Positions 19,979-24,667 of a DNA stretch of 64,000 bases are shown piece after piece. The position numbers and the translations under genes were made by a program. The notes below the pieces were generated by a model, which was not told the DNA's origin, did no database searches, and saw nothing but the letters and a program-made list of their open reading frames with translations. Source of the DNA: Plasmodium relictum (Eukaryota > Apicomplexa > Aconoidasida > Haemosporida > Plasmodiidae); contig NC_041692.1 in assembly GCF_900005765.1 (NCBI RefSeq), positions 806,001 to 870,000 of the forward strand. The letters run 5' to 3'. Positions within the stretch are counted from its first letter, which is position 1; each line of letters opens with the position of its first letter.

Positions 19979-20249
19979 CTATTTGCTGCCTATTGAAGTT
20001 TTAAAAAATTGTCTAAGTTATTAAATTATAACAAAAAAAAATATAAGGCTAAAGGATTAAATGCGCTTTTCGTAATTTTTAAGAAACCTAAATTTCATAA
20101 AAGCAAACATATGCTATTAAATTTTAGAAATTAATAAAAAATGTTTTTAATCTTTTTTATAAAATTACTAAAATTTCTTTTTCAAATTTTATATAATATT
20201 AAAGATTATATCTTATAAAAAAATAAGTCAAACGAATTCTATAGAGCAT

Positions 20250-20317
<68 letters not shown>

Positions 20318-20828
20318 AAATAAAAACTTTTATTTCATAAACATTATTTAAAAAACCTATAAAATAATAATATTTAGAATAAATAAAGATAGGAACATGA
20401 TTATTAACAGATAAGAGAAAGATGAAAATATAAGTTATAAATAAAAAATTAAAAAAAATATTGTATACATAAAGATGATAAATGGTGTAGAAGAATGAAT
20501 TGAAAAAAAAATATATTTTTGAACATAAAATGTTCTTATATGCAGTTCGAAAAAAAAAAAAAAAAAGAGAAAATATTTTTTAAAAAAAATATTTTACATT
20601 ATTGTAACGCATTAAAAAAAAAAAAAATAAATTGAAAAAATATATATTGAACAGAATCATTAATTCCAAGTGTTATTTTTCTAGTAAAACTCAATACTTT
20701 TTATATCTTTAATTTTAATAAAATTTTTATGCTTTTAAGTATTTGTATCTGAGTATATATATATTTTAATCAACAATAAAAATACATATTATTTGTATAT
20801 TTTTTTTTAGAAGTCAAAAAAATTAAAA
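19979..20828. other. Divergent promoter region, RAP / selenoprotein
   Basis: An 850-base region between two divergent start codons, with a long AT dinucleotide tract and several A-runs. No further gene was seen. Confidence 0.6.
20253..20308. repeat. (AT)28 microsatellite
   Basis: About 56 bases of uninterrupted AT dinucleotides in the divergent promoter region between the RAP and selenoprotein genes. Confidence 0.95.
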
Positions 20829-21836
20829 ATGACTCTAAAGAAAATATATATTTTAATTGTTTTAATTTTATTTAATATTGCTTCCTTGACTGTAGAATCA
20901 GGGTGATCTAGGAAGTTACATATTAAATTACCAAATAAAGATGATGATTATTTAGCTAAATTAATTGACATTTTTAAGGATATATGCAGCTACACTGTAA
21001 AAAATAAAAAAACAATTCAAAAAATTATAATAGGATCATTAATATCAGCATATTCAGTAAATTCATTGTATAATTCAGGAGTTACATTCAAAAAAAACCC
21101 ACATTATTCTTTTTTTATTCCATCAAGCAAATATTTAAAAAATGTATTTAAAATTATAAAGAAAAATTATGAAATAAAGATGGATAAATTTGTCCAACAA
21201 AAAATATTTGAAAAATATTTTACCAATGTTAATAACTTAAAAATTATGGAAATGTATATAGTGAATAATTTAATGAACTTTACATATTATTTACCTGAAA
21301 AAATAAAGAAGGAAAAGTTTTACAATTTTTTAAAATACAAGGAATTTGAAAATTTTGAAAGCTTATTTAGTCATGTAAAGATATTAAAGCATGAACAAAT
21401 TTTTATTTTTCATGGAAAATTAAAAAAACATTTTTGGATACATCTTCCTTTAAAATACAAAATATTGAAAGCTGATAATGATACATATACTTTAATTTTT
21501 ATACCATTATACAAATATTACTCTAATTACATTATTGAAATAAAAATACAAAAAGAAAATAATAATGTAAAATTTGCAACATTTATCAAAAGGAATGAAA
21601 ATGGTAAAAAGACAGACTTATTTTATATAAATGTAATAAAAAATATTGCTTCATACTTAACATATGATATCTTTGATGGAATGGATAATAATATTAAGGT
21701 ATACTATAAAAGAAACAACAAATTTGGCAAATTGAATTTCATTAATTCAAAAAGAATATTAAAAAAAGATAAATTCAAAATGAAATTCATCCTCCCTTCT
21801 TTTAAATCGTTTAATTTTAAAATTAAACAAAAATAA
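20829..21836 (+). CDS. Selenoprotein, secreted or membrane-anchored, Sec at codon 26
   Basis: From ATG 20829 the frame runs 25 codons and meets TGA at 20904-20906. It then stays open for 309 codons to TAA at 21834-21836, giving 335 residues if TGA is read as selenocysteine. Residues 1-22 are a hydrophobic signal peptide or anchor ('MTLKKIYILIVLILFNIA'). The Sec sits just after it, in SG-U-SRKL. A second moderately hydrophobic segment lies near 67-85; the rest is basic, Phe/Tyr-rich and without a known domain. A SECIS-like hairpin lies about 250 bases beyond the stop. The signal peptide sits exactly upstream in frame, so the start is natural and a 256-residue protein from a later Met is unlikely. 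Plasmodium is known to have a few lineage-specific selenoproteins (Sel1-Sel4); this is probably one, but I cannot say which. Function is unknown. Confidence 0.82.
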
Positions 21837-22424
21837 GTGTTATCAAAAAAAATTAAGTATATGCATAAATGTATAATTCAATAGTATTCGATAGGGAATG
21901 AACGAGTGTATATTTTATGTAGTTTTGTAAATATATGATTTTTACATTATGCATATATAAATTCTTGTTTTGTTTTGTTTAGTTTTTATATAAAAAAACA
22001 TGTATATATGAATTGTTTTTCATTTTTTATGTCTTTAAAAGTGTCAAATTAGCAACATCATCTTAATATAATATTCAATAAAATGAACGAATGAAGAACT
22101 ATTCCAAAATCCTTTGTAAAGGAAGGAATAAATCGGACATGTTCATACATCTAAAATAATTAATATTTATAAAATTTAATATTAAAAATTTTTTTTTTTT
22201 TCTATTTTCAATAAAAAAAATTTTAATTTAAAACTTTTAAAAAAAAATTTTCTTTTTTTTTTTGAAAATATTTATTCTTTTAAAGCTCTTTAAAATAATT
22301 TCTAAAAATGTTGTTTTTTTTTATTAAATATTTTAAAAAATTATCGCAATAAAAAATATAGCAGAACATTAATTACAATATCAAAAAGCAAAGCAAAAAA
22401 AGAAAAAAAAAAAATGAATAGATA
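21837..22424. other. Convergent intergenic region, selenoprotein / SOD
   Basis: A 588-base region holding the 3' UTR of the selenoprotein gene (with the SECIS element) and, on the other strand, that of Fe-SOD. Apart from the SECIS it is homopolymer-rich and featureless. Confidence 0.65.
22083..22146 (+). promoter_or_regulatory. SECIS element (form II-like)
   Basis: Lower stem ATGAAC (22083-22088) pairs with GTTCAT (22141-22146). The 5' core quartet ATGA (22091-22094) faces GGAC (22135-22138), allowing the tandem G.A/A.G pairs of a K-turn. Helix II is 11 bases on the 5' side and ends in TATTCC (22100-22105), which pairs with GGAATA (22125-22130). An unpaired AAAA (22106-22109) supplies the apical adenosines. 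A mini-stem TCCTTT / AAAGGA (22110-22115 / 22118-22123) closes over GT. Spacing and order fit a eukaryotic form II SECIS, which recruits SBP2 and the Sec-specific elongation factor. The pairing was done by eye. Confidence 0.8.
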
Positions 22425-23021
22425 TTATTTGTTTAAGGCATTTCTTAAATTTTCATTAGCAAAACCCCAATTTACTAAATTCCACCATGCTTTTACATAC
22501 GATGCCCTATCGTTTCTGTAATCAATATAATAAGCATGTTCCCAAATATCACATGTTAATATAGGTATACCAGTGTTGTCTCTTATTGGATTTCCTGCAT
22601 CATGTGTTTGTAAAATTACCAATTTATTTTTATTATTTAAAGCTAACCAACCCCAACCTGAACCAAAATGGCCACATAAAATATTTGAAAATTCATCTTT
22701 AAAATTACTAAATGATCCAAAATCCTTTTCAATTTTTTCTTTTATTTCTCCATAAGGTTCTCCCCCACAATTTGGTCCCATAGAATCCCAGTAAAATGTG
22801 TGATTCCATATTTGAGCTGCATTATTAAAAATTGCTCCTGTTGATTCTTTTACAATATCTAATAATGATTTATTAGCAAAATTTGTATCTTTAATTAATG
22901 TATTTAATTTATTAACATATCCTGCATGATGCTTATTGTAATGAAAACTTAATGTTTCTTCACTTATATGAGGCGACAAAGCATTTAATGCATATTTTAA
23001 TTTTGGTAATGTAATAGCCAT
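22425..23021 (-). CDS. SOD1: Iron superoxide dismutase
   Basis: A 198-residue Fe-type SOD, full length. Metal ligands are in place: H27 ('SFHYNKHHAGYV'), H74 ('AQIWNHTFYW'), D158 and H162 ('DIWEHAYYIDY'). Gln70 in 'NNAAQIWNH' and the 'FGSGWGWL' and 'HDAGNP' segments mark the iron rather than the manganese subfamily. It dismutates superoxide to O2 and H2O2. With no leader before 'MAITLPKLKYALNALSPHIS', it should be the cytosolic enzyme (SOD1); Plasmodium also has a targeted paralogue (SOD2). No low-complexity inserts. It converges on the selenoprotein gene. Confidence 0.97.
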   Translation of the reverse strand: MAITLPKLKYALNALSPHISEETLSFHYNKHHAGYVNKLNTLIKDTNFANKSLLDIVKESTGAIFNNAAQIWNHTFYWDSMGPNCGGEPYGEIKEKIEKDFGSFSNFKDEFSNILCGHFGSGWGWLALNNKNKLVILQTHDAGNPIRDNTGIPILTCDIWEHAYYIDYRNDRASYVKAWWNLVNWGFANENLRNALNK

Positions 23022-24512
23022 TTTGTCTTTATTAAGTTATATATTGATAAATTTTTATATTTTTTTTTTTCTTTCGGAATAACTTTCCTATTTTTCAATT
23101 TTATTTTGAAATATATTTAAACAAAAAAATATTATGTTGTTTTTTATAGTTTATTACCTTAAATTTTTTTTATTTTATTTATAAAAATGAAATTATAAAA
23201 TAAAATTTTATAATTACTTAATAATTAAAATTTAGTAAAATATAAGTCACACAACTTTGTAATTTTTAAATGAAAAAAAAAAAAGGTAATAAATATTGAA
23301 GTAATTTTTCTATTTTTTTTTTTAAACCAATTGCTAAGTGCTTAATAATTAAAAAAAATGCAATTTTATAAATTTTGTATATTTAGATCCTTACAGAGTT
23401 AAAAAAAAAAAAAAAATTATGAAAAGAATAAATAATTAAAGTTAAAATGATATAAAATAAATAAAAATAATCATTTTTTTTTATTTTAATTTTTTTTTTT
23501 TATTAAAATGCTTTACCTATTTTTTTCACTCAATACTTTAAATAATGTAAGATATTGTTACTACAAAACATATATTTATATGAAGTTATATATAATCTTA
23601 TTTCGCTTATTTTTTATAAACACAAAAATTTATGTAAAATAAAGTACTATTTTTTTTACATTTATAAAAAATCGTAATTAAAAATTACTATTAATATTTA
23701 TTTTTTTTTCATTTATAGTTTATAATTATTCATATAAAAAATTATGAGCTATATTTTTAGAAATATTCATTGATTTAATTTTATGTTAAAAATTAATTTG
23801 TGTAGCTATGTGTTTATAAATGAAAAATTTAATTAAAAAGAAAAAAGACAAAAAATAAAGCATAACTACATAAAAAAAAATAAAAAAAATTAAAAATAAT
23901 AAATAAGAAATACAAAACAGTATAAAGCTAATAATATAACAAAAAAAATTAAGTATAATATTTATGAGAAATTTGTTGAATAAGTATCTACTTAAATATA
24001 AAAGGCTTATATGAATTACACAATGAACAACAAAAAAAAAAAATATATCATATGCATGCATAACCGAAAAAATTAAAATATAAATAATTGAACTATTGTA
24101 TTAAATAAAAATCTATTAGTATATAAATGATATATATAATTATTAAAAAGAAAAAATAAAAAGATTAAAATATTAAATAATATATATATATAAAACTAAA
24201 GAGAATAAGATTTTTTTTATTTTTGTGGTAATAATAGTTTCCTTTGAAAATTATGCTTTTGCATATTTATAGCTATCACCTATTTTTTTAATACTTTCAT
24301 TGTTGAAACTTTTTCTTATTATCCATATTAATGATTACTAAGTTTTCAATCTCGTCTCAATTTTATATTTTTTTTATGTGTATCATTTTGATTTCTTTCA
24401 TATCTATATGGAGATATTAAATTTTTTGTTTTGGAAATTATTAAGGATATATGTTTTTTTTTTTTTTTTAAACAAATAATTGTACTTTACAATTATCAAT
24501 ATTTACAATCTT
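23022..24512. other. Intergenic region upstream of SOD
   Basis: A 1.5 kb stretch containing the SOD promoter and the 3' UTR of the large low-complexity gene. Segment 23800-24060 is A-rich on the plus strand, and the minus-strand hydrophobic frame there is not a credible gene. One TGCATGCA site lies near its middle. Confidence 0.6.
24053..24060. promoter_or_regulatory. TGCATGCA palindrome (possible ApiAP2 site)
   Basis: An exact TGCATGCA, about 1.03 kb upstream of the SOD start codon. The core TGCATG is a known binding motif of several Plasmodium ApiAP2 factors (for example AP2-Sp and SIP2/AP2-EXP types). A single copy, so its use is only inferred. Confidence 0.35.
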
Positions 24513-24667
24513 CTAAAAAATATTGTCATATGCTTTGCTGTTCATAGATTCGTAATAAATTTTACAAAAATCAAAAGTAAAATTTCTTTTAGCTTTGACT
24601 AAACTAAATTTCTCCATATTTTTTAAGCTCCCTTTGTATAATGCTCTATTATAAGAATTTGTAAATT
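24513..24667 (-). CDS. Probable C-terminal continuation of the large gene in a shifted frame
   Basis: Immediately after the A9 run at about 24672-24680, the frame reached by re-reading one base (or by one extra A) stays open for about 50 codons to TAG at 24513. It encodes 'VKFTNSYNRALYKGSLKN' followed by a segment with Cys, Phe, Tyr and Met. Its composition is coding-like and denser in G+C than the adjacent intergenic DNA. It has no good start codon of its own. It could be a homopolymer sequencing error, a true frameshift mutation or -1 slippage on A-AAA-AAG. Confidence 0.5.

Follow-up and report, generated by a model that had tools for sequence, protein, structure and literature searches.

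A 64-kb window of the Plasmodium relictum genome (64,000 nucleotides of contig NC_041692.1, forward-strand positions 806,001 to 870,000, to which coordinates refer unless a genomic contig is named) carries a gene in which an in-frame TGA interrupts an otherwise open coding frame. With a probability of about 0.94, we consider this gene to be the P. relictum orthologue of the known selenoprotein Sel3, with the UGA at 20904 read as selenocysteine (Sec), an identification that follows from the Sel3 names of its homologues. Sel3 is already known as a selenoprotein, and the sole fresh element here is the prediction of a START/Bet v 1-like domain.

The interrupted frame, its SECIS element and its homologues

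The Sel3 coding sequence (20829..21836, plus strand; 335 residues as judged from frame analysis and homology) begins at ATG 20829, runs for 25 codons to TGA 20904-20906, which occupies codon 26, and continues through 309 sense codons to TAA 21834-21836. The in-frame TAG at 20808 closes the frame upstream, and the translation of 20829-21839 opens with MTLKKIYILIVLILFNIASLTVESG, followed by the TGA. At the base composition of the window (81% A+T), the chance of an open run of 309 codons is about 3e-14. A scan of all six frames of the window sought stops with 100 or more open codons after them and, before them, an in-frame peptide of 20 or more amino acids that starts with ATG. Two cases emerged, and only in the Sel3 case is the stop a TGA. 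Residues 1-21 (20829..20891, plus strand) are assigned as a signal peptide or N-terminal hydrophobic segment, both from the alignment to relatives and from the KD-19 profile, whose peak of 2.11 at residues 6-24 is the sole 19-residue window peak above 1.2 in Sel3. We infer that the TGA (20904..20906, plus strand) encodes U26 from the SECIS (selenocysteine insertion sequence) element, the homology on both sides of the codon and the Sec machinery.

The SECIS element was recognised, when 20001-24600 was searched, by the Rfam family SECIS_5 (RF01991), whose model positions 1-66 of 66 match 22082..22147 on the plus strand (80.3 bits, E = 3.7e-16; gathering score, 50 bits). It starts 245 nt past the Sel3 stop codon and 1175 nt past the TGA, on the strand of the gene, and would lie within the Sel3 transcript, in its 3' untranslated region. 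The hallmarks of such elements, an AUGA/GA core and unpaired A's under the apical stem, are all present on the plus strand: the 5' side of the core (A AUGA, 22090..22094, with AUGA at 22091-22094), unpaired in the family structure, the unpaired AAAA below the apical mini-stem (22106..22109), and the 3' side of the core, GACA (22136..22139, with GA at 22136-22137). Identity to the SECIS_5 consensus amounts to 54 of 66 bases, and to 44 of 46 at the capital-letter positions, with no notable difference from the family anywhere along the full-length match. Agreement this close at the sequence level suggests orthologues of one gene as the source of the SECIS_5 family. Folding of the 82-nt segment 22075-22156 gave -15.3 kcal/mol (z = -2.91), and 0 of 200 shuffles were equally stable. 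Thus, both the coordinates of the 25-codon signal-peptide frame, TGA and 309 open codons, and the SECIS-like hairpin in the 3' region, as proposed in the initial annotation, proved correct.

Across the whole window, SECIS_5 is the sole Rfam family exceeding its gathering score, and at E ≤ 10 it is the sole SECIS_5 match reported in the 22.6-Mb genome (514 contigs; 63 of 6294 first-look candidates scored). Weak SECIS_5 matches occurred in 6 of 14 control genomes, with the cut-off reached in 0 of 14. With the general SECIS_1 model, nothing was found in the genome at E ≤ 10, SECIS_2 to SECIS_4 being untried, and therefore Sel1, Sel2 and Sel4 would escape detection with SECIS_1. A second genomic place with a match of about 60 bases at 82% (C14:297840-297900) was judged from its surrounding sequence to be a chance AT-rich match and rejected.

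The identity of the gene comes from its relatives. At E ≤ 0.001, a single-sequence search recovered ten named Plasmodium proteins and two unnamed ones, 12 in all, with identities of 39-60% across the homologues and 46-60% to the ten named ones, a divergence that would fit an avian parasite without proving one. The P. malariae homologue (60% identity over 90%) and that of P. ovale curtisi (55%) both bear the name 'selenoprotein, putative (Sel3), partial', and the proteins named Sel3 (P0002, the best match, E = 4.2e-106; P0003, E = 1.0e-94) each cover 90% of the query. The word 'selenoprotein' occurs in a source's name for 9 of the 12 homologues, including 7 of the 8 other named ones, the P. fragile protein being without it. 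A profile search, for which the candidates were the 7993 sequences sharing most words, yielded 13 proteins at E ≤ 10, namely the same 12 plus P0014 (E = 3e-4). Of the two identities suggested at the outset, an orthologue of one of Sel1-Sel4 or an additional member, the homologue names point to Sel3, and an additional member is not needed. The gene is orthologous by sequence to Plasmodium Sel3, and in P. relictum an element of a curated SECIS family lies downstream of it. Sel3 itself was reportedly described by Lobanov et al. in 2006, in The Plasmodium selenoproteome. P. falciparum is reported to have at least four selenoproteins (PMC12486841), and its SEL3 is listed among the hub genes that are upregulated when ring stages overexpress PfAlba3, which hints at regulation (PMC11878077).

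Gene models of relatives and alternatives to selenocysteine

None of the 12 homologue models crosses the TGA site with matching flanks. The Plasmodium Sel3 entries of these relatives are partial, start late or skip the site, whereas in P. relictum the full-length frame is visible with both signal peptide and TGA. Five models (P. vivax, P. cynomolgi, P. inui, P. coatneyi and P. knowlesi) share the signal peptide and then jump past the Sec, resuming at about residues 34, 30, 29, 34 and 75 of P. relictum Sel3, respectively. Among the others, two 'partial' models begin at LPN, two start elsewhere, shortly ahead of the DDYLGK block, one begins MYIKLP, one begins later, and that of P. fragile has an N-terminus of unrelated sequence. 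The relatives' models break as expected round an in-frame stop, and the prediction that automated annotation would truncate the gene holds in kind but not in detail: the start foreseen for the shortened product, 21066, is a TTG (Leu80), and the first in-frame ATG 3' of the TGA is at 21180.

The signal-peptide models also bear on the frame upstream of the TGA. Their ungapped identity to the P. relictum peptide is 9/21 for P. cynomolgi and P. knowlesi, 8/16 for P. inui and P. coatneyi, and 6/12 for P. vivax, values reached in 0.1-0.2% of peptide permutations (2.5% in the case of P. vivax, whose piece is short), or in 0-0.09% when BLOSUM scores are compared. In two of these models, the block KLHIKLP or LHIKLP comes next. 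Because the signal peptide aligns without gaps and is so rarely matched by permutations, the frame 5' of the TGA is very probably coding. In viral_contigs and genome_contigs, 24 and 15 stretches, respectively, fitted the search pattern, and no relative was among them.

That this region is spliced out in some relatives' models raises the possibility that the TGA lies inside a small intron, or that the gene really starts with a first exon at another place, and that no Sec is inserted. We combined the GT donors in 20832-20904 with the AG acceptors in 20905-21059, first exons upstream of 20829 lying outside this test, and found six GT-AG excisions spanning the TGA that preserve the frame and leave no stop but the last (9, 24, 57, 87, 87 and 120 nt), of which the 24-nt excision joins residue 21 to residue 30 just as the P. 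cynomolgi model does. However, the donors GTTTTA, GTAGAA and GTGATC compare poorly with the usual consensus, and an intron of 9 or 24 nt would be too small. Both 87-nt excisions and the 120-nt excision would remove the conserved KLHIKLP...DDDYL segment, and the 57-nt one would cut into the hydrophobic core. Nor do the relatives offer a common junction: the five signal-peptide models use five different donor/resume pairs, and the LPN junction, at which two models resume and the two 'partial' ones start, is preceded in P. relictum by AAA, with no AG acceptor. An intron would, in addition, leave the SECIS element downstream of the stop codon unexplained. Judged from these sequences, a real intron at the TGA is unlikely, and we give the alternative as a whole, including a first exon elsewhere, only a slim chance.

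Slimmer still is the chance that the TGA arose through faulty sequencing or assembly, or marks a pseudogene that has recently acquired a nonsense mutation. One base difference would be enough to produce it, but the remainder of the frame stays open for 309 codons and retains homologues at the identities given above, the SECIS element matches its model end to end, 0 of the 12 homologue models crosses the site with matching flanks, and 9 of the 12 have been given selenoprotein names.

Selenocysteine machinery and the proposed route of Sel3

Five components of the Sec machinery were sought in the genome, namely tRNA-Sec, SepSecS, SelD, eEFSec and PSTK, and most of them are present, which, together with the SECIS element, favors the selenoprotein reading of the initial annotation. 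The tRNA-Sec, with anticodon TCA, lies at C12:1630110-1630198 (69.3 bits), SepSecS on C13 (287 bits) and SelD on C7 (177 bits summed). The candidate for eEFSec is a 690-aa frame at C2:222199-224271, whose best PDB match is human eEFSec (E = 3.6e-62). The top match of TIGR00475 in the genome appeared by eye to be an organellar EF-Tu.

Several observations weigh against Sec insertion in this gene, beginning with the machinery itself. PSTK was not found in the genome with PF08433 (PSTK/KTI12); introns may interrupt the gene for this kinase, or it may have diverged. The SepSecS match contains one in-frame stop, perhaps an intron, and the eEFSec frame scores below the curated cut-offs of TIGR00475 (140.9 vs 242.25) and PF21208 (23 vs 27), for which reason its identity rests on the match to the human protein. 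As for the homologues, conservation of the TGA is deduced from the breaks in the relatives' gene models, not from their DNA, and the five signal-peptide models come from one clade (P. vivax and its simian relatives) and are not independent. In the P. fragile model (P0008), a Cys stands in the Sec column, where the flanks are unrelated. P0014, from an unnamed 'lgn' contig of 1656 bases, has an open reading frame with RSKQLHIKLPDEDDDYLAKLI..., which corresponds to the Sel3 segment just after the Sec site, preceded by an N-terminus of unrelated sequence in which arginine aligns with the Sec. This frame runs on into what we take by eye to be 2-oxoglutarate dehydrogenase E1-like sequence, on account of which P0014 is probably a chimeric assembly; otherwise, it would be a Sel3-like stretch without Sec. 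Finally, Sec has no conserved Cys partner in the protein, position 53 being Cys in 6 and Thr in 5 of the 11 sequences covering it, and a redox-active selenol would therefore need an outside thiol such as glutathione.

If Sel3 is translated as proposed, the SECIS element would recruit a putative SECIS-binding protein, eEFSec and the Sec-tRNA with anticodon UCA, and the ribosome would place selenocysteine at UGA 20904 and continue to UAA 21834. The signal peptide would route the chain to the endoplasmic reticulum and the secretory pathway. Sec26, four residues past the hydrophobic segment, would come to lie at or close to the mature N-terminus upon cleavage of the signal peptide, with the START-like domain C-terminal of the Sec tail. 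The structure model is uncertain around the Sec, the predicted local distance difference test (pLDDT) score being below 50 at residues 18-37 and 39-42. Membrane selenoproteins of the SelK/SelS type likewise have a single N-terminal hydrophobic segment and carry their Sec in a tail for which disorder is predicted, but their Sec is near the C-terminus, whereas that of Sel3 is N-terminal and followed by the globular domain.

A predicted START/Bet v 1-like domain

Structure models of P. relictum Sel3 and of its P. vivax orthologue, together with Foldseek searches, point to a START/Bet v 1-like (SRPBCC helix-grip) domain at about residues 119-295 (21183..21713, plus strand). The helix-grip arrangement, beta-alpha-alpha-beta6-alpha, is seen in the predicted models, and the fold agrees between those of the two orthologues, both built on the same 13 sequences. 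A fold of this kind usually encloses a hydrophobic ligand, often a lipid-like molecule. The closest fold systems are the StARkin/START-like sterol-transfer domains (yeast Lam2/Lam4, GRAMD1), PRELI/SLMO and PR-10/Bet v 1, from which Sel3 differs in having no significant sequence similarity to them and in its signal peptide and N-terminal Sec tail. Sel3 has no recognised relatives outside malaria parasites.

It is also conceivable that Sec is inserted but that the domain is not START/Bet v 1-like, the model being wrong or reflecting merely a common alpha-beta arrangement. The models of the two orthologues agree on the fold, but they share their 13-row alignment, and pLDDT is low outside about residues 116-295. 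Sel3 gave no significant sequence match in Pfam, NCBIfam or PDB: with Pfam, the 13 members of the family yielded six weak families at E ≤ 10, none of them START/Bet v 1 by name (the best being DUF1247, E = 0.0058, in 4 members), and among PDB sequences only Protein ENL appeared, weakly (E = 1.2). The Foldseek rows at E ≤ 0.001 are loose superpositions, with root mean square deviations of 5.6-14.9 and template modelling scores by target of 0.24-0.54. Owing to this looseness, we treat a wrong fold as unlikely and nevertheless as carrying appreciable weight.

With the START/Bet v 1-like fold taken from the models, we tentatively picture Sel3 as a protein of the secretory pathway that would handle a hydrophobic ligand, such as a lipid, and bear a reactive selenol at its mature N-terminus. 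Such a protein may act on an oxidised lipid-type ligand, e.g., by reducing it, without a conserved Cys partner of its own. Among the literature titles inspected, none pointed to a START-like fold for Sel3, which is not proof of its absence from print.

The surroundings of the gene can be described briefly. Its tail-to-tail neighbour is a Fe/Mn superoxide dismutase of 198 aa (22425..23021, minus strand), mentioned for context only. An (AT)n tract some 60 bases long lies upstream of the gene (~20250-20310). On the minus strand, at ~20582 and antisense to the 5' flank of Sel3, an open stretch of 126 codons follows a TAA and a hydrophobic upstream peptide; it is AT-rich and probably due to chance. 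Pfam matches to neighbouring frames between 997 and 19978 comprise an EamA transporter, a cation efflux/zinc transporter, a FAD_binding_3 protein, importin beta and a RAP-domain protein, all of them ordinary.

Collectively, these results indicate that Sel3, its SECIS element and most of the Sec pathway have been retained in a Plasmodium species although its Sel3 shows only 46-60% identity to the ten named homologues. The locus illustrates how gene models lose a selenoprotein. If the START-like fold is true, it would provide the first handle on the role of Sel3 and make a test of ligand binding possible.
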